Numbered from the stretch's first letter, positions 5,861 to 20,066 are shown. The stretch is DNA of 20,989 nt from a virus (IMGVR_UViG_3300025010_000886:1-20989), one strand, 5' to 3'. Numbers and translations: made by a program. The notes: generated from the sequence alone by a model not told the origin.

Positions 5861-7696
5861 TTATATCTCACTTAAATATTGACTTGGCACCCCCGGTACC
5901 TGTTTGCCCTGCCAGTCCGAATATGTCAGAGACCGGCATAGTACCAACCTGTTCTTAGCCCGCGTCAGCGCTACATAACAGAGTCTTCTTTCCTCTTCCT
6001 CATCCACGTTGCTCTTGCTAGGGAAAACCCCCTGATTTAGCCCCAAAACAAACACTGTATCAAATTCAAGCCCCTTGCTTGCATGTACAGTCATTAATTT
6101 AACAGCAGGTTTTTCCTCGATGAGTTTTTCTTGAATATCGCGGTATTTCAACCATTTCAGGAAGCTTTGTACGCTGTCGCTCTCAAATAGGTTCCTCTTT
6201 CCCTGCTCCCAGTTCTCCATAGTGGCAATGGCTTTTTTAATATCATCTACCCTGTTCTGCTGGCCACATTGGGTAAGTCTTTCCGTAATACCAAGCACAA
6301 GGTCTATGCTCTTGAGATACTGGCTTGCTTTTGTGTATTGTCCGTTCTCAATTACCATTTGAATATCTTCTACCATTTTCCTAAAGGGAAATATTGAACT
6401 ATTTTCGCCACACGTATAAGTAGCTTCATAAAGACTACAACAATTATCCAAAGCGAATAATTCAATCTCTTGCAGTTCTATTTCACTAAATTGCTTTAGC
6501 GAAAATTTAAGGCATTTCCTAAATGTGTAGTTATCTTTTTTGTTGTTAAGGAAGTCCATCCACTCCAGGATCCCTCGAACTCCGTTTTTCTTGAAGACAT
6601 CATCACTGCCAGCGACAATTTGAGTAGGCAGTCCCTGAGCATCTAAGAACCGCGAAGCATTTTCAATCTGTCGGTTTGTCCGGGCTAGAATTGCTATATC
6701 CTGCGGCATGGTTCCGTTTTTAATAAGCTGCTTAATGCACTCACCAACCAGCAAGGCCTCCTGCTTATCGTCCTGCCCGACTATGCTGGATATTTCCACC
6801 CCGTCTTTGTGTGCTATTAATTTCTTTTCAGTCTGATTGACGTTGAAGGAGATAAGCCTGTTAGCCGCTGCCACTATCGCCCCGGTTGACCTATAATTAT
6901 CTTCCAGCTTGATAACTTCACAACCCGGATATTCTTCCGGGAATCGAAGTATGTAGTCAACTCTGGCTCCCCTCCAGCCGTAGATCGCCTGAAAATCATC
7001 ACCCACCACGAACAGGTTCTTTGGTGCTAGGTAGTTAATCATCTTCTTCTGATCATCTGAAGTATCTTGAAATTCATCCACGAATACGTGAGTATAATTT
7101 CTTTGATACTCGTCCAGTGCTTCGGGGCATATTTCCCATAGGCGGTTAACTAAATCAATAAGTCTATCTAGGTCAACGGCGTTGTTTTGCCTTAACCTAT
7201 AGCCGTATTCAACCAATACCCGGCATTCCTCAGGGTATATTGTTTTTTCTACAGCTATATCAATACAGTTTTCAAATCTCATCATTACTTTTTTGAGATT
7301 AGTTCTGTGTCCTAATTCATCTATGATGTTTTTTAAAATACTCTCTCGGTCTGCCTGATCGTAGATTGTAAAATTAGGCTCAATGCCTAACTTATGTCCC
7401 CACCGACGTAGCACCGACACCGCAAAGGCATGAAAAGTATTACAGAATAGCTTCTTGCCCTGCTCCTCGCCAATTAGCGAAATAACCCGCTCTTTCATTT
7501 CCTTCCCCGCCAGGCGGGTAAAGGTTAAACAAAGCATCTGTCCGGTACCAACCCGGCATTCCTGGTTTAAACAAGCCACCCTGTGTGTTAATGTCCTTGT
7601 TTTGCCGGTACCGGCCCCGGCCAGCGTGAGTATAACCGGGGCATCTGATATAACTGCAGTACGCTGGGCATCGTTAAGGCCGTTAAGAAGCTTCAT
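5861..7696 (-). CDS. UvrD/PcrA/Rep-type superfamily 1 DNA helicase
   Basis: This 611-aa ATP-driven 3'-5' helicase would unwind DNA during phage replication or recombination. Motif I is GAGTGKT (27-33), followed by LTFTRLAGKEMKERV and TFHAFAVSVLRRWG. Motif II is FVDEFQDTS (about 207-215), motif III VVGDDFQAIYGWRGA, motif IV LEDNYRST, motif V TVHASKGLEFDTVFV (about 533-547) and motif VI VALTRAKNRL (about 576). It is about 110 residues shorter than PcrA, with no extended C-terminal tail. The ATG has GGAGG upstream and overlaps the 81-aa gene by 14 bp. Coupling to the ATPase gene upstream suggests a joint recombination role. Confidence 0.93.
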   Translation of the reverse strand: MKLLNGLNDAQRTAVISDAPVILTLAGAGTGKTRTLTHRVACLNQECRVGTGQMLCLTFTRLAGKEMKERVISLIGEEQGKKLFCNTFHAFAVSVLRRWGHKLGIEPNFTIYDQADRESILKNIIDELGHRTNLKKVMMRFENCIDIAVEKTIYPEECRVLVEYGYRLRQNNAVDLDRLIDLVNRLWEICPEALDEYQRNYTHVFVDEFQDTSDDQKKMINYLAPKNLFVVGDDFQAIYGWRGARVDYILRFPEEYPGCEVIKLEDNYRSTGAIVAAANRLISFNVNQTEKKLIAHKDGVEISSIVGQDDKQEALLVGECIKQLIKNGTMPQDIAILARTNRQIENASRFLDAQGLPTQIVAGSDDVFKKNGVRGILEWMDFLNNKKDNYTFRKCLKFSLKQFSEIELQEIELFALDNCCSLYEATYTCGENSSIFPFRKMVEDIQMVIENGQYTKASQYLKSIDLVLGITERLTQCGQQNRVDDIKKAIATMENWEQGKRNLFESDSVQSFLKWLKYRDIQEKLIEEKPAVKLMTVHASKGLEFDTVFVLGLNQGVFPSKSNVDEEEERRLCYVALTRAKNRLVLCRSLTYSDWQGKQVPGVPSQYLSEI

Positions 7697-7928
7697 TTAC
7701 GTTATCCTCCGGCTTAACTTGCCCTTTCGGTGACTCCACTTCAATCAGAATCCGCACTATCGAACCTAAAGGCATACTTGATAAAGTTTTGCTAGCATAT
7801 TTAAAGATTTCGTCTATCGGCATAGATCCTGGCGTTCTGCTTGATGATTCCGAAACTACTCCAATTGCCCAACTATTTCCTGGCATCTTAACCATTGCAG
7901 TTTTTCCCTCTACGATAATCTCACGCAC
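7683..7928 (-). CDS. Hypothetical protein, 81 aa, between ATPase and helicase genes
   Basis: The protein has a beta-rich N-terminal half (MREIIVEGKTAMVKMPGNSW) and a second strand region near the end (GSIVRILIEVES). There are no motifs that I recognise. The start is GTG at 7928, eight bases after GAGGTGAG; it overlaps the ATPase stop by 8 bp, and its own end overlaps uvrD-like by 14 bp. This tight coupling implies production in ratio with the two enzymes. It could be a small cofactor of them. Confidence 0.7.
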   Translation of the reverse strand: MREIIVEGKTAMVKMPGNSWAIGVVSESSSRTPGSMPIDEIFKYASKTLSSMPLGSIVRILIEVESPKGQVKPEDNVNEAS

Positions 7929-10074
7929 TTTGGCTCACCTCGCTTACTGGCGAACTCAAGTCCCAAACCTTCCACCTATCAGCCTCAAAAGAAAACTCTA
8001 TGGCACCAGCAAGGATAATATTGTCCAGCTTGTCAGATAGCTTACTTAATCCATTAATCAGCATCTGGAAATTTTGTCTGTCTAAGTGGTTTAAATCGTC
8101 CATGACAAGTATCTTCAGCTTGGGATTAGCCCGGTCTAAAATTGTGACCGTCATAGCGGCCAGGAAAACTGTTTGCTGTCCAGTGCTCAGAGCGTCAAAG
8201 TTAACTCTGTGTCCCTTTTCGTTCACCCATCCGAACTGAAAAATTTCTTTCCCTGTATCTGATTCGGTCTGAAAAAATGGGGTTTGGTTAAATCCCATCA
8301 GTTGCAGGTTTCCGCTAATGTCTGACCTGATAGGTTCCAAGATTTCCTTCACCAGTTCGCCTTGTATGCCCTTGGGCCCCAGCGCCTGACTCAGAGATTT
8401 TAGCCCCAGGCTCATGTATTCGGCTTTGGTATTTTCAATCATACTTTGCTGCAGGAGAAGGATTGTCTGCTTAGCCTTTTCCTTTTCCTCTACAGACAGC
8501 TTTAGTTCTGTTATCCTGGACCGGATCCCCTCAGCCTGTTTCTCCTGAATGTCAACAGGCGCAAATCCTTCTGCCGGTTCATTCATTAGTTTAATTAGCT
8601 CTGTTTTATGCATGTTAAGCTGATTTGTGTACTTTTCAGCATCCGACAGGACTTTATTCTTTTCGCGCTCCATGGCAGTTATTTTATTCTGGATAACAGT
8701 ATTTTGGCTATTGGCCTTTTGCGCCTGTAGTACAGCGGCTTCACGCTTATCTTCCAGTGCTTCCGATTCTGCTTCCAGTGCTTTGATCTGTAGGTTTAAC
8801 TCCTCAACCTTGGCGGTCAATTCTGCAGTTTTAGCCTCGCCCTCAGCCTTTTTCTTTTCCGCAAAACTATCCAAGCCAGTCCAATCCTTAGGGCAACTAA
8901 TCTGCTGGTGCAGCGTACATTTCCCGGCCAATTCGCCAGTCTTAGCTACTGCATCCTGAATCGTTTTAACTTGTGTTCTGATAGTTGTTATTTGGCTGTT
9001 AAGCTCCATGCGCTCATTAGTCAATACCTTAAGCTGCTTCTTTGCCTCGGCCAATTTTTTCTTGATTTCTGCTGTCTCTGCTTCGGTGTCCACCGGAGGT
9101 GTAATCTGCCCCTGCAGGTCTTTGATTTGCTGGTCCAGAGCTGCAGTATCATTGTTTACCGGTGATTCCTCCAACTTGCTGATAATGGACTGCAGTTCGG
9201 CTATCTTTATGGTTCTCTTGTCTGCAGTCTTCTTTTTTTCGGTACCAGATGAAATCTGCTTCTCAACCGCAATTAATTGCTGCTGCAGTTCTTCAAGCTC
9301 CGCTTTGGCCTGAATAATATTCCGGTCCGTTTCCTCTAGCTCGTTTTTCTTTTCTGCGATTTGTCTGACTGCTCCCTGAGCATCCTTCTGCTTGCCATTC
9401 CAATAGGACAATTGGGCAGAAGTCCAGTCCAACATGCTTTGCAATCCTGCGTGAATATCGACTGCTTCCGGATATTCTGCCATGGCTTTAGTAATAATTT
9501 CGTGATTTGCCATGTACCGATCCGGGCTGTTGGCCTTAATGGCCAGAGTTAGCATCTGATTGTCAAGGTACTTCTCAACGTCTTCCCTAGTCCAAGTATT
9601 TGAGGTAATCGGGCTCAAAGAGTATATGAAATCCCGACGTCTGGCATCCGAAAGGCCAAGGAACTCTGAGAAATCAAGCATCACTGGGAAACTGCCGATT
9701 TCTTCAAGTATGCGGGCTTTCTTTGCAGTGTCGTTTTTCTCTCCCTTGCCCGGCGAGACTAAAATAGACTCGCTGACAGTCACTTTTTTCTCACCGGTCT
9801 TCCGGTCCTCAGATTCTTTTCTTGTGAAGGTTCTGCTAAATTTAAAATGGTCCGTCTGCAGCCCCACCGTCATGGCCCCATTGGTCGATAACTTAAAGGT
9901 GTCCTCTGCCCTCTTGCCGTTTCCAGGTACATAACCCATTATTGCAGCACCCAAAGCCTGTACGCGGGTAGTTTTGCCTGCACCATTCCTGCCTACGAAA
10001 ATATCCATTCCGGTAAGTGGTTGACTGCAGGTCTGCCCCTTAACGTTCTTCATTTCAATGGTGTTAATGCTCAA
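7921..10074 (-). CDS. SbcC/RecF/SMC-like ATPase, 717 aa
   Basis: The protein has an ABC-type split head with a long coiled coil. Walker A is GRNGAGKTT (28-36). Coiled-coil arms cover about 210-385 and 405-550. The apex holds C-x6-C in GKCTLHQQISCPKDW (about 390), a possible metal hook although not the classic CxxC of Rad50. The signature motif is LSTGQQ (629-634) and Walker B is LVMDDLNHLD (about 657), with Asp where most ABC ATPases have the catalytic Glu. The TTG start overlaps the previous stop as TTTTGA. No SbcD nuclease partner is present. It probably works on DNA ends or recombination intermediates with the neighbouring helicase and 341-aa protein. Confidence 0.88.
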   Translation of the reverse strand: MSINTIEMKNVKGQTCSQPLTGMDIFVGRNGAGKTTRVQALGAAIMGYVPGNGKRAEDTFKLSTNGAMTVGLQTDHFKFSRTFTRKESEDRKTGEKKVTVSESILVSPGKGEKNDTAKKARILEEIGSFPVMLDFSEFLGLSDARRRDFIYSLSPITSNTWTREDVEKYLDNQMLTLAIKANSPDRYMANHEIITKAMAEYPEAVDIHAGLQSMLDWTSAQLSYWNGKQKDAQGAVRQIAEKKNELEETDRNIIQAKAELEELQQQLIAVEKQISSGTEKKKTADKRTIKIAELQSIISKLEESPVNNDTAALDQQIKDLQGQITPPVDTEAETAEIKKKLAEAKKQLKVLTNERMELNSQITTIRTQVKTIQDAVAKTGELAGKCTLHQQISCPKDWTGLDSFAEKKKAEGEAKTAELTAKVEELNLQIKALEAESEALEDKREAAVLQAQKANSQNTVIQNKITAMEREKNKVLSDAEKYTNQLNMHKTELIKLMNEPAEGFAPVDIQEKQAEGIRSRITELKLSVEEKEKAKQTILLLQQSMIENTKAEYMSLGLKSLSQALGPKGIQGELVKEILEPIRSDISGNLQLMGFNQTPFFQTESDTGKEIFQFGWVNEKGHRVNFDALSTGQQTVFLAAMTVTILDRANPKLKILVMDDLNHLDRQNFQMLINGLSKLSDKLDNIILAGAIEFSFEADRWKVWDLSSPVSEVSQSA

Positions 10075-11096
10075 AACATATCACCACCTAAGCCGTTCAG
10101 GTCCGGTTGTCCAAACCCATTGTTGCTAGATGTGTTATTTTCCGCAGCCTCTGGTTCTTCTGACGCCACCGCATTTAGGCGTTCTTCCTCGTCCATTTCA
10201 GCGCCAATTTCCTCAGCAGAAACTTCGGCTTTAACGTCAATAACCTCAGCCTTTTGACCTCCTACCGTTACCTCGGCTCCCTGCTCAGCCTGACTCGCCA
10301 TTTCTAAAAGCTGATCCTGAGTGAAGTTATGGACAAAACCAACCAGAGTAACTTTAGCTGTCCGGCGTTTCTCTTGGCCCTCAGCGTTTACATATGCTAT
10401 ATGCGACAATGCTGGATGCTGACTCATTGCTAGCCTCGTAGCTATGGTTTGGGCGTTCCGCTCTGCAAACTGCTTTTTATTTACGAAGGTGTCGATGGCC
10501 TTGAGTATTTCCTTGTGTCCAACGTCGGCCCAAACTCCCATAACTCCGTCAATTTTGTAAAATATCCCGGTTTGTTTCTCTTTGTCGGTTAGCATACTTT
10601 CCATGCATACCCGACCGGCACCGGCATTGTATCCTACTTTTTTGAGTAAATCCTGAATGAAGTACATATTGATGTCATACATGAGGGTTGCTGTAGTGAT
10701 GACTAAATTTCCAATTGGCCCATATCCGACAGCCATTTTCTTGGCCCATACTTTGCGGATGGTACCGCTATCCGGGTCAACTATCGGGTAAGGATTTACC
10801 ACGACATGGCCGTCCGGCAAGGTTAATTTGTCAGGTGTGATGATAGATAAGGATGTGATTTGATTTGCACGGTTAAAGCCTTTTCCCGTGACCATGGCCT
10901 TGCCGCTTATTACTGCTATATCGCCATTGGTCTCGTCTAGTGTTACGGTTCCCTTGACAGACCTTAGTGTTCCGTTTGCGTGCCTCTTAACAAAAACTTC
11001 ACCGTCGCCCAGCATTGCTATGTGCTGTTTTCTAAGTGCGGTTATCTGTGTCTGCATATTCTGAACCAAAGCTACGTTACTCTCTGCTAATGCCAT
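10071..11096 (-). CDS. Unrecognised 341-aa protein in the recombinase position, with a GGDMF tail
   Basis: I cannot assign a family. The N-terminal helix is followed by a beta-rich core (about 45-240) with few hydrophobic segments. After about residue 255 the protein becomes an acidic, disordered linker and ends NNGFGQPDLNGLGGDMF. Such a tail resembles the acidic phenylalanine-ended tips of single-strand DNA binding proteins. The ATG follows GGAGGCG. It directly precedes the SbcC-like ATPase (overlap TTTTGA). In phage operons this slot often holds RecT, Erf or a ssDNA-binding protein, so a ssDNA-binding or annealing role is a reasonable hypothesis, not shown by any motif. Confidence 0.75.
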   Translation of the reverse strand: MALAESNVALVQNMQTQITALRKQHIAMLGDGEVFVKRHANGTLRSVKGTVTLDETNGDIAVISGKAMVTGKGFNRANQITSLSIITPDKLTLPDGHVVVNPYPIVDPDSGTIRKVWAKKMAVGYGPIGNLVITTATLMYDINMYFIQDLLKKVGYNAGAGRVCMESMLTDKEKQTGIFYKIDGVMGVWADVGHKEILKAIDTFVNKKQFAERNAQTIATRLAMSQHPALSHIAYVNAEGQEKRRTAKVTLVGFVHNFTQDQLLEMASQAEQGAEVTVGGQKAEVIDVKAEVSAEEIGAEMDEEERLNAVASEEPEAAENNTSSNNGFGQPDLNGLGGDMF

Positions 11097-11100
11097 TTGT

Positions 11101-11337
11101 TTACGCCTCCATTTCCCTTAACTTGATTCGGCTATAAAAACTACTTACAAGCTGATAAAGCTCGTCCGATGCCTTACTGAATGAATCTTCCCTGCACCTA
11201 TCGTCGCAATAGTTTCTACTAGCACCTATACTTAGCTCGTGCAGGTAAATCTTTCGCTTACAGGTCCGGCAAATTCCAACCACAGGGTTAACTTCCGTAC
11301 CTGCTTTAATTTCCATGTCGTGCAGCCAGCCTTGCAT
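11101..11337 (-). CDS. Zinc-ribbon small protein, 78 aa
   Basis: Cysteines CRTC (C23, C26) and CDDRC (C44, C48) form a plausible four-Cys zinc site, followed by a helical C-terminal region (ASDELYQLVSSFYSRIKLREME). The ATG at 11337 lies after GAGGTGATT. It ends four bases before the 341-aa gene. Family unknown; a nucleic acid or protein binding adaptor is possible. Confidence 0.7.
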   Translation of the reverse strand: MQGWLHDMEIKAGTEVNPVVGICRTCKRKIYLHELSIGASRNYCDDRCREDSFSKASDELYQLVSSFYSRIKLREMEA

Positions 11338-16938: not shown

Positions 16939-17011
16939 ATTGTGTAATCAATGTTTATAATTAGGCTTTGGGCAAAACCTTGCCATTCTGATTTATGGAG
17001 AGGTGATATTA

Positions 17012-17737
17012 ATGGCTGATTGGGATCAAGTTAAAGAATGGGGAAGAATTTTCAAAGCTCTTATACCTTGGCTATTTGGTTTATTTGGTATTCACCACTG
17101 GGCTTATAACAAGTTTCCTAAATATTACTTTATGTTATTAAAAATTTTTTCAAAATTCAGAGACACTAAATGGTCAATTACTACAACGTTAGTAGTTGAT
17201 ATTGCCAGTGTAGCATCGGTATACTCCGAATTAGAAAAAATACTATTTCAACGTTATTCAGATGGACATTGTAAAAGAAAGTTTAATTTTAATAACAAAA
17301 AGATGTATGAATGTGGTTCTTTTATATTTACGATAACAGATAATTCAGACATGGGAAATCAAAAAGTTAATATATGGGTTAACATACCGCAATTAAATGT
17401 AACAGTTAATAATGCTACAAATTATTTAAGAGATATAAGAGAACTATTTCATGAAATTGAACTCCAAATAAAACCAGAAGAAACTTATTATAATATTGAT
17501 ATTTTCTTTCCCAATACATTTAATCCGTTTTATGGTTTAATGATTCAGCGACTAGGTTCTGAAAAAATTGAATATTTTGAATGCAGATTTCCTATTTCAG
17601 CTTTAGTCAAGAGAAACTATGAGTTAAAAAACAGAGATAATAATTTTTTACGAGTTTATAAGGATAAAATTACAATTAATGAAACTTCTTTTGATGCCTT
17701 AGAGGAAACTGCACTTAGAGCTTTGTTGCTAGAGTAA
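17012..17737 (+). CDS. Unknown protein of an AT-rich cassette, 241 aa, one membrane segment
   Basis: No family recognised. The N-terminus has a hydrophobic segment (IFKALIPWLFGLFGIHHWAY, about residues 13-32), probably a membrane anchor. The remaining 200 residues alternate beta-strand and helix (VNIWVNIPQLNVTVNNATNY) and look like a soluble domain. A GTG in frame at 17003 overlaps the ribosome site AGAGGTGAT, so ATG at 17012 is preferred. The gene is more AT-rich than the repressor or integrase and pairs with the 216-aa gene 16 bases later. Position beside the integrase is typical of phage accessory or defence genes. Confidence 0.7.
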   Translation: MADWDQVKEWGRIFKALIPWLFGLFGIHHWAYNKFPKYYFMLLKIFSKFRDTKWSITTTLVVDIASVASVYSELEKILFQRYSDGHCKRKFNFNNKKMYECGSFIFTITDNSDMGNQKVNIWVNIPQLNVTVNNATNYLRDIRELFHEIELQIKPEETYYNIDIFFPNTFNPFYGLMIQRLGSEKIEYFECRFPISALVKRNYELKNRDNNFLRVYKDKITINETSFDALEETALRALLLE

Positions 17738-17753
17738 TTACGGGGGGAAATTT

Positions 17754-18404
17754 ATGAACAGTATTAGTTCCTTTGATATTGAAAGCAAAACTGATTTTCA
17801 AATAGAAAATGGACACAAATTTGAAACAGTAAAAACAATAAATGGATTTGATGAAGTTTTGGAAACATGGATATACACTAATGAAACCACTCAAAGCGGT
17901 TATCGAAACTATAGAGTGATAACGGATGAAGTTTTAGATTTTAAGGTTAGAGTCAGAGGCGAATATGTGGATCAAGTTATAAAAAGGGAAGCATATTCAA
18001 CATATTATAATCCTAATAATTCACGATTAATCGCAATATGTAATAAGCATAATGCTTTTGAAATTGCAGGTATTTTTGAAAATAATTTTAATATTAAAGC
18101 AAAAAAACATAAGTTTAATATTCCTGAAATAATTAATCAATCATCTGATGTTAGAGGTGCTAAATTCGAGGTCCAGATTGAAACTGTTACAGGAGTATCA
18201 TTAAAAGGAACACAAATTAATTCAACTCATTATTATACTAACATGATTAATTCCGGTAAGCTATCCGGTGTTATTGTAACTTATGATTATGGTGATAGAA
18301 CAGTAACCTTTAGGGTATCAGTTGACGGTACACTATTATTTTATTCCCAGTTATCAGATCATGATTATTTAGATTTTATAGATATGTTGTATCAATTCGA
18401 ATAA
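17754..18404 (+). CDS. Unknown soluble partner protein, 216 aa
   Basis: No family recognised. Acidic, beta-rich, with no signal or membrane segment. It has a repeated strand pattern such as GAKFEVQIETVTGVSLKG and GVIVTYDYGDRTVTFRVSVD. ATG follows GGGGGG. It lies 16 bases after the 241-aa gene and ends before a terminator, so the two form an independent operon. AT-rich like its partner, suggesting a shared and separate origin from the phage core. Could be a toxin-antitoxin, exclusion or defence pair; the sequence does not decide. Confidence 0.7.
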   Translation: MNSISSFDIESKTDFQIENGHKFETVKTINGFDEVLETWIYTNETTQSGYRNYRVITDEVLDFKVRVRGEYVDQVIKREAYSTYYNPNNSRLIAICNKHNAFEIAGIFENNFNIKAKKHKFNIPEIINQSSDVRGAKFEVQIETVTGVSLKGTQINSTHYYTNMINSGKLSGVIVTYDYGDRTVTFRVSVDGTLLFYSQLSDHDYLDFIDMLYQFE

Positions 18405-18466: not shown

Positions 18467-19951
18467 ATGAAGCGCGGAGCAGTTTATATTAGAGTTAGTC
18501 ATTTAAAGGATGACGGAGTAAGCCCGGAAACCCAAATGGAGAAGGCGCAATTACAGGCAAGTTTGTCCTCTATCGACATCGTGAAAGTCTATGAGGACTT
18601 AGACATATCGGGCCGATCCGCGACCAAAAGAATAGGCTTTCAGCAGCTAATCGAGGACGTAAAGGCCGGGAAATATGATGTTGTCCTGGTCTACCGCCTT
18701 GATCGCTTTGCACGAAATGTTCGCGACTTCCATCACTACGTCGAAGTCCTAGAAAAAAATAATTGCAGTCTTATATCAATCAGCCAAAACATTGACACTG
18801 GCTCCCCCACCGGCCGCCTGCTCAGAAATATCCTTATAGACTTTGCCCAGTTTGAATCTGAAATGATATCTGAGAGAGTTAGAGACAACATGATCCAGAA
18901 TGCCAGGCGGGGATCATGGAACGGCGGGCAAAAAGCATATGGCTACGACTGGGATGATGAACAAAAACTACTGGTACCCAACGATAACGCCAAATGGGTA
19001 CTGCTTATTTTCGAAGAATACGCCTTAAATCCGGGGGCAAATAGAATACGCAATATTTTATACCAAGAAGCTATTCCCTCTCCTTCCGGGGGCAAATGGT
19101 GGGCTCCTACAACAATTCGATATATACTTAGGAACCCTGTTTACACCGGCAAAATAGAATACGCTGGTGAGGTTGCAGACGGCAAGCATCAGCCGATTGT
19201 TTCTCAGGATCTCTTTGATCGGGTGCAGCACCTTTTAGGAAAGAACAGCGAAATGGCCCCGCGCAGCCGGGATAGCCAGCACTTACTTTCCGGACTTCTA
19301 GTGTGCCCCTACTGCTGCCGCCACCTCCAGGCCAGATTTAACGGACAGAAACGAATACGCCGGTATGTGTGTTACACCCGGATTAACATGGGAATCCATG
19401 AGTGCAAATGCAAAATACTTGATGCTGACAGTCTAGAAACTGAAATAGTCAGGATTATGCTTATGTTAGGCGAATCGGTTGAATACTTTGAGGAAGCCAA
19501 GCAGGCACTAAAAGAAATCGCGGCAGCTGCGGAAGAAGAAAGACCAGCCGTAGAAAAAATAGAAAAAGAAAAACGGCTCAAAAAAGTTAGAGCCGCCATG
19601 AAGGATTTATTTAAAGACTATTATGAAGAAAAAATTATCCCAAGGGAGCAATTTATAGAGATAAATAAACAGTACCTTGAAGAAGAAAAACAATTAGTAA
19701 ACTACCTGGAAAAGTTTGATCAAGTAGATAACCATTTTGCCTCCCAGGAAGCTGACCTGATCCTATTACAAAGCCAGTTATCGGCACTTAAAACCGCCTG
19801 GCCAGTTATGACCTTTGAAGAAAAGAAAATGGCTTTAAGGGATATGGTTAAATCAATTGTACCACACGACGATCATGTGGAGCTGGATATATTTTTTAGA
19901 AAGATAGAAATAGTCCCACAGAAAAATACTGAAACAACTATGACCTTTTGA
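18467..19951 (+). CDS. Large serine recombinase (phage integrase), 494 aa
   Basis: Site-specific recombinase that integrates and excises the element through a phosphoserine bond. Catalytic domain 1-145: nucleophile S11 in YIRVS, then DLDISGRSATKRIGFQQLI, VLVYRLDRFARN and the SPTGRLLRNILIDFAQFE region. Recombinase domain about 160-260 (QKAYGYDW, RYILRNPVYTGKI). The zinc ribbon has CPYCCRHL and later CKCKILDADSLE cysteines, then a coiled coil about 335-430. Length suits phage serine integrases. ATG follows TGAGGTGAC. It lies at the right end of the prophage, pointing to a tRNA; attachment sequence not located. Confidence 0.95.
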   Translation: MKRGAVYIRVSHLKDDGVSPETQMEKAQLQASLSSIDIVKVYEDLDISGRSATKRIGFQQLIEDVKAGKYDVVLVYRLDRFARNVRDFHHYVEVLEKNNCSLISISQNIDTGSPTGRLLRNILIDFAQFESEMISERVRDNMIQNARRGSWNGGQKAYGYDWDDEQKLLVPNDNAKWVLLIFEEYALNPGANRIRNILYQEAIPSPSGGKWWAPTTIRYILRNPVYTGKIEYAGEVADGKHQPIVSQDLFDRVQHLLGKNSEMAPRSRDSQHLLSGLLVCPYCCRHLQARFNGQKRIRRYVCYTRINMGIHECKCKILDADSLETEIVRIMLMLGESVEYFEEAKQALKEIAAAAEEERPAVEKIEKEKRLKKVRAAMKDLFKDYYEEKIIPREQFIEINKQYLEEEKQLVNYLEKFDQVDNHFASQEADLILLQSQLSALKTAWPVMTFEEKKMALRDMVKSIVPHDDHVELDIFFRKIEIVPQKNTETTMTF

Positions 19952-19988: not shown

Positions 19989-20066
19989 TGGTCGGGATGA
20001 CATGATTCGAACATGCGACCTCACGGTCCCGAACCGTGCGCTCTAGCCAAGCTGAGCTACATCCCG
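19989..20066 (-). tRNA. tRNA-Pro (anticodon CGG)
   Basis: Full cloverleaf on the minus strand: acceptor CGGGATG/CATCCCG, D stem GCTC/GAGC, anticodon stem CACGG/CCGTG with loop TTCGGGA (anticodon CGG), T stem GCATG/CATGT with TTCGAAT loop, discriminator A and encoded CCA. The C1-G72 pair and A73 fit bacterial tRNA-Pro. It reads CCG. The gene is intact, three bases from the shared terminator. Confidence 0.95.

Follow-up and report, generated by a model that had tools for sequence, protein, structure and literature searches.

A candidate family of single-strand annealing proteins encoded beside a Rad50/SbcC-like ATPase and a UvrD-type helicase in phages of Bacillota

Results

Genes of the window

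The window, i.e., the whole stretch of DNA that was analysed, is a 20,989-bp fragment of a phage record. The module described here lies in the early region, on the strand that it shares with a DnaD-like helicase loader, and consists of the following features:

11101..11337, minus strand: 78-aa Cys-rich ORF directly upstream of g341, with a homologue only in the closest relatives
10071..11096, minus strand: g341, candidate single-strand annealing protein (SSAP), phrog_32428, with a core of ~300 residues and an acidic disordered C-terminal tail
10071..10092, minus strand: coupling region, with the Shine-Dalgarno-like AGGTGGTG within the 3' end of g341 and, for the ATPase, a TTG start that overlaps the stop of g341; it encodes GGDMF
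7921..10074, minus strand: Rad50/SbcC-like coiled-coil ATPase of 717 aa with a TTG start, phrog_32642
7683..7928, minus strand: 81-aa ORF between ATPase and helicase, of no family, with a homologue in a minority of relatives
5861..7696, minus strand: SF1 helicase of the UvrD/PcrA type without a nuclease domain, assigned by matches to UvrD/PcrA models

The initial annotation had described an unrecognised 341-aa protein joined by overlapping junctions to a 717-aa ATPase, an 81-aa protein and a UvrD-type helicase, and the ORF coordinates agree with it, adding the minus strand, which had not been given. The g341 ORF of 341 aa starts with ATG, has a GGAGG Shine-Dalgarno sequence 5' of the start and overlaps the ATPase ORF by 4 nt; the ATPase ORF in turn overlaps the 81-aa ORF, and the latter the UvrD-like ORF. 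The reported lack of RecT, Erf and Sak families and of a nuclease also holds, as domain scans of proteins of the window, itself a fragment of the record, detected neither RecT, Rad52 or Erf nor an SSB or nuclease; there was no exonuclease in the module or among these proteins, and no SbcD-like/Mre11 nuclease partner among the module genes.

The ATPase is AAA_23/SbcC-like by profile match and carries Walker A, an LSTGQQ ABC signature and Walker B, the last reading D-[DNS] (DD, DN or DS) instead of DE in 12/12 cases. Its coiled coil contains an invariant C-x7-C pair (C386/C394) at the site that aligns with the zinc hook of Rad50, the alignment with the zinc-hook region of Pyrococcus Rad50 having an E value of 4e-4. 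Judged by the altered Walker B and the cysteine pair, the enzyme may therefore be a slow ATPase that dimerises through a variant hook. The best NCBIfam match of the helicase is pcrA (E 4e-124).

Elsewhere in the window, an MT-A70 family adenine methyltransferase is encoded in the early region (2231-2842, minus). A large serine recombinase with Resolvase, Recombinase and Zn-ribbon domains (18467-19951, plus) adjoins tRNA-Pro(cgg) (19989-20066, minus), a region that is a possible attachment site. Beside this integrase lie two genes for proteins without a Pfam or PADLOC match (17003-17737 and 17754-18404, both plus); the integrase-adjacent position is a frequent site of lysogeny or defence genes.

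The g341 family and its operon

Homologues of g341 were collected from viral contigs, searched with the ATPase and a g341 alignment, and from bacterial genome contigs, searched with g341. They occur in phages and prophages of Bacillota, i.e., of Bacillus, Paenibacillus, Sporosarcina, Brevibacillus, Schinkia, Clostridium, Hathewaya, Lucifera and a Selenomonadales MAG, and are rare in the phylum (3/398 genomes sampled around one positive Bacillus, itself among the three). An alignment of 30 homologues, which share 38-80% identity, has 28 invariant columns, thus g341 is a real gene. The survey of the g341-ATPase neighbourhood that had been proposed earlier revealed a consistent linkage: in 37/37 loci found with g341 as bait the order g341, ATPase, UvrD was kept on one strand, and the g341-ATPase junction measured -7 to +29 nt in 36 of them and +61 in the remaining one. 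Two distant relatives with ~23% identity to the window g341 (L069 and L088) have the ATPase in the region, with small genes intervening.

The only assignment of g341 came from PHROGs, where it matches phrog_32428 (E 5e-133), annotated as of unknown function. Sequence searches of Pfam, NCBIfam and PDB with the protein gave no match (best Pfam E 0.09), the family profile found nothing beyond chance in these libraries either (best E in PDB 0.2), and tblastn against annotated phages and plasmids found none. Pfam matches to RecT/Red-beta (PF03837), Rad52/Sak (PF04098), Erf (PF04404) or the OB-fold SSB (PF00436) were absent from the window g341 and from all 31 members. Profile comparison by HHalign with RecT, Rad52/Sak, Erf and phrog_10048 stayed below 1% probability, which is uninformative and not negative, since the positive controls failed too (RecT with Red-beta 6%, Rad52 with Erf 0.2%).

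The acidic linker noted at the C-terminus of g341 is a family trait, most members having 10-15 D/E within the last 45 residues. In a clostridial-type subgroup (L012, L036, L037, L038 and L052) and in L041, a longer C-terminal helical extension (..FRKPxEELTxGQLEMAK..) replaces the short acidic tail.

Junction with the ATPase gene

The 3' end of g341, GGT GGT GAT ATG TTT TGA, is for the most part also the ribosome-binding site and the overlapping TTG start of the ATPase gene. At the same place relatives have GGAGG, GAGGTG or GGGGGTG, and most of them, like the Rad52 genes found in the slot, carry Shine-Dalgarno codons equivalent to those of g341. The GGDMF ending, in which the initial annotation saw a likeness to SSB tips, is indeed there, but it was rejected as evidence: the two glycines, and in part the last residue, are accounted for by the Shine-Dalgarno sequence together with the overlapping start, and the tip is largely an imprint of translational coupling. 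The terminal residue is aromatic in 25/31 members, among them some with TAATG or TGATG junctions, so it may still have a role.

Other occupants of the slot before the ATPase

A scan with UvrD as bait gave 80 loci, 43 of them with the ATPase (E < 1e-8). In these 43 the gene before the ATPase was g341 in 36, RecT in three, phrog_10048 in two, and Rad52/Sak and ERF in one each; the slot was thus filled by g341, a known SSAP or phrog_10048 in 43/43. The RecT proteins of L190, L197 and L211 match PF03837 with E 4e-42, 2e-26 and 5e-30, respectively, and the ERF protein matches PF04404 in Pfam with E 3e-15. The scan with the ATPase as bait gave the Rad52/Sak loci L008 and L009, of which L008 is a second record beside that of the UvrD scan. 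In both, a Rad52_Rad22 protein (PF04098, E 2e-21 and 4e-23) is encoded in the slot, its gene overlapping that of the ATPase by 4 nt; it is ~49% identical to gene 28 of Sf6, and its identity to Sak (ORF252) of Lactococcus phage ul36 is 48%. A more distant operon with a weaker ATPase match (L073) has Sak4 there (PF13479, E 2e-23). In line with the view that this place is typically held by annealing proteins, related operons carry RecT, Rad52/Sak, ERF or Sak4 there. Counts are given per scan and are not pooled, as a few records recur across scans (e.g., a single contig appears as L009, L053 and L146). Two surveys of genomes of Bacillota, one for PF04098 (0/149) and one for PF04404 (1/101), served solely to collect comparison sequences. 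RecT, Rad52, ERF or Sak4 above the cut-off was found in 0/23 viral records bearing g341, which are possibly fragments.

The two phrog_10048 genes precede the ATPase and UvrD at L067:3923-4816 and L013:4273-5580, an SSB gene adjoining in L013, and phrog_10048, which is annotated as of unknown function, also lies near UvrD in L199, L205, L209 and L216. It is probably a second unrecognised family of annealing proteins.

Exchange of the annealing gene

In the ATPase tree, the ATPases of the Rad52-slot operons are nested within those of g341 operons, as sister to L020 (100/98), inside a clade of six (100/99) and a clade of 13 (100/100) to which the window belongs; in a quick UvrD tree the same operons fall into the same group of six. 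From this nesting, and the agreement of the UvrD tree, it follows that the annealing gene was exchanged with the ATPase and helicase retained.

In two loci the exchange is recorded within the gene itself:

L197:1982-3223: chimeric RecT gene with an in-frame N-terminal g341 remnant
L211:2540-3865: chimeric RecT gene with an in-frame N-terminal g341 remnant and also a g341-type C-terminus

The first 66-100 residues of these ORFs match g341 of related phages only and have no RecT match (58% identity over 52 aa to g341 of L200, E 4e-16 or 7e-18; 47% over 55 aa to that of L195, E 5e-15; all E values depend on small search sets). The middle matches RecT only, with no g341 match, and the last 60 residues of the L211 ORF match g341 C-termini only (L225, 48% over 44 aa, E 7e-8 in a small set). 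The RecT profile has no match to g341, and the g341 profile finds only the remnant in the RecT ORFs. RecT may in truth start at a Met within the ORF, just ahead of SKELTV, which would make the N-terminal part an untranslated remnant; with either start, g341 sequence lies directly in front of the RecT domain in both loci. We read this arrangement as a RecT core that has taken the place of the g341 core within the gene. Slot occupancy and interchange with known SSAPs, two marks of the functional class of SSAPs, are both found for g341 by the slot survey, the trees and the in-gene replacement; further marks of the class are ssDNA binding, annealing and the formation of rings or filaments.

Predicted fold

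An AlphaFold2 model of the window g341 from the 31-member alignment reached a mean pLDDT of 78 and pTM of 0.69, with a confident core covering most of residues 41-260 (block means ~84-91); that of the distant homologue L069 (~23% identity) reached pLDDT 84 and pTM 0.79. The comparison by AlphaFold and Foldseek that the initial annotation had suggested had a mixed outcome: RAD52 is the best match of both models by VIA-align 2, but Foldseek with the window model found no significant match in PDB. In BFVD it found none that is convincing, RecT- and RAD52-named models appearing at weak E values. On VIA realignment of the window model, human RAD52 came first (Z 5.5, 111 residues, rmsd 5.2 A) with a ribosomal protein just behind it (Z 5.3), and by the tool's own yardstick a Z of ~5.5 is within the range reachable by unrelated folds. 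For the L069 model the top six entries are all RAD52, five with Z 5.1-5.6 and one with Z 4.1, the best five aligning 127-134 residues over RAD52 31-183; the best other row has Z 3.8, and LiRecT, the Listeria phage RecT (7ub2), has Z 3.2. The SSAP fold consists of a beta-hairpin, alpha2, a three-stranded antiparallel sheet and alpha3 across the sheet (PMC9870868), and the DSSP order of elements in both models (hairpin, short helix, strands, long antiparallel pair, helix) is compatible with it. The models are no more than suggestive; a divergent Rad52-superfamily fold is probable, and the structural argument by itself would not carry the SSAP claim.

Discussion

Binding of ssDNA and annealing of complementary strands are established activities of RecT, Rad52, Erf and Sak. 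The slot that g341 shares with known SSAPs and its in-gene replacement by RecT lead us to conclude that with it a hitherto unrecognised family of annealing recombinases in phages has very probably been found, annealing being its predicted function. The proposal that an unrecognised recombinase works in a phage module with an SbcC-like ATPase and UvrD is strengthened by the complete operon linkage, the exchange of SSAPs in the slot, their exclusion from g341 records, the in-place RecT replacement and RAD52 as the best structural match. Genes that take the same place in an operon need not have the same biochemistry, and the following model is inferred by analogy. The g341 protein would bind the ssDNA that is exposed where phage DNA ends or where forks stall, oligomerise on it and anneal complementary ssDNA in the manner of RecT, Sak and Erf. 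The co-transcribed Rad50/SbcC-like ATPase, probably a hook-linked dimer, would bridge or hold the DNA ends, and the UvrD-type helicase would unwind and clear ssDNA, so that the two could handle the ends where other systems use a dedicated exonuclease.

A bolder version, which we regard as rather unlikely, would make g341 an annealase with an independently arisen and superficially Rad52-like fold, working in an exonuclease-free machine in which a hook-linked, hydrolysis-impaired ATPase and UvrD replace resection by bridging and unwinding. There is only a slight chance that g341 is instead a phage ssDNA-binding protein (SSB/gp2.5-like) or an SSB substitute and not an annealase. The acidic tail and the terminal aromatic residue of 25/31 members would suit such a protein, as would the weak resemblance of the window model to the OB folds of PriB and SSB (VIA Z 2.3-2.6) and the 17/23 g341 records without a PF00436 SSB; however, canonical SSB co-occurs with g341 in the other 6/23, the GG..F tip is largely a Shine-Dalgarno imprint, the better model (L069) yields RAD52 and RecT and not OB folds, and the proteins that replace g341 are RecT, ERF, Rad52 and Sak4, with no SSB alone seen in the slot, that of L013 standing beside phrog_10048. 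Translational coupling to a strictly conserved ATPase partner could also befit an accessory protein or mediator, i.e., a loader or adaptor of the ATPase or helicase without annealing activity that tends to be lost upon acquisition of an SSAP. This is highly improbable, as g341 operons would then be without an annealing function, no known SSAP being present in those records, and as the RecT domain sits exactly at the position of the g341 core with the g341 flanks kept, which argues for a swap of function. Matches of UvrD to PADLOC GajB models (E 1e-101) and weak matches of the ATPase to LmuB/JetC coiled-coil models would suit an anti-phage defence system borne by a prophage (Gabija- or Lamassu-like), but this reading is scarcely credible and was rejected. 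The GajB matches reflect general UvrD homology, as seen with pcrA, and the nine PADLOC families reported include no GajA (OLD/TOPRIM) match of the ATPase; moreover, the module belongs to the early region and shares the strand of the DnaD-like helicase loader, and g341 is replaced by SSAPs.

Recombination, replication restart and genome mosaicism in phages all depend on SSAPs as their driving proteins, and recombineering is built on them. The g341 family, missed by the profile libraries used, could add recombineering candidates for hosts in which RecT works poorly. If g341 is the annealing protein that we predict, a single recombination operon retains its ATPase and helicase and swaps the annealing subunit among at least five families. 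The RecT/g341 chimeric genes resemble a natural domain swap, and the functional equivalence of the two proteins is directly testable.

Several known systems resemble parts of this module. Canonical SbcCD/Rad50-Mre11 has a CxxC zinc hook, a catalytic Glu after Walker B and a nuclease partner. The module ATPase shares with Rad50/SbcC the Walker A and signature motifs and the alignment of the zinc-hook region, and differs in having C-x7-C in place of CxxC, in the replaced Walker B Glu and in the lack of SbcD/Mre11 alongside. In Gabija, GajA, an OLD-type ATPase with a TOPRIM nuclease, stands beside the helicase GajB, whereas the g341 module has GajB-type matches for its helicase only. RecT is usually partnered with an exonuclease or SSB. 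The slot before the ATPase and UvrD is common to g341 and RecT/Red-beta (PF03837), which have no detectable sequence similarity, and the RecT proteins found there have the ATPase and helicase as partners, unlike in the usual pairing. Rad52/Sak (PF04098; human RAD52, Sak of phage ul36) occupies the same slot before a related ATPase and UvrD; g341 has no sequence match to it and adds ~30 residues with strands between two helices as well as the acidic tail.

A survey of phage recombinases in Firmicutes, the same host phylum, distinguished seven families, i.e., RecA, RecT/Red-beta, Erf, Rad52/22, Sak3, Sak4 and Gp2.5, and found recT/red-beta genes adjoining those of SSB, SMC-like or uncharacterised AAA ATPases (PMC8093625). 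The g341 family is not among the seven, and the paper uses neither the term UvrD nor 'novel family' (PMC8093625). A structure screen has listed thousands of unannotated SSAP candidates (PMC11783212), which may include g341 proteins. Relative to the seven Firmicutes families and the profile libraries used here, g341 probably represents a new SSAP family, set in an ATPase-helicase operon.
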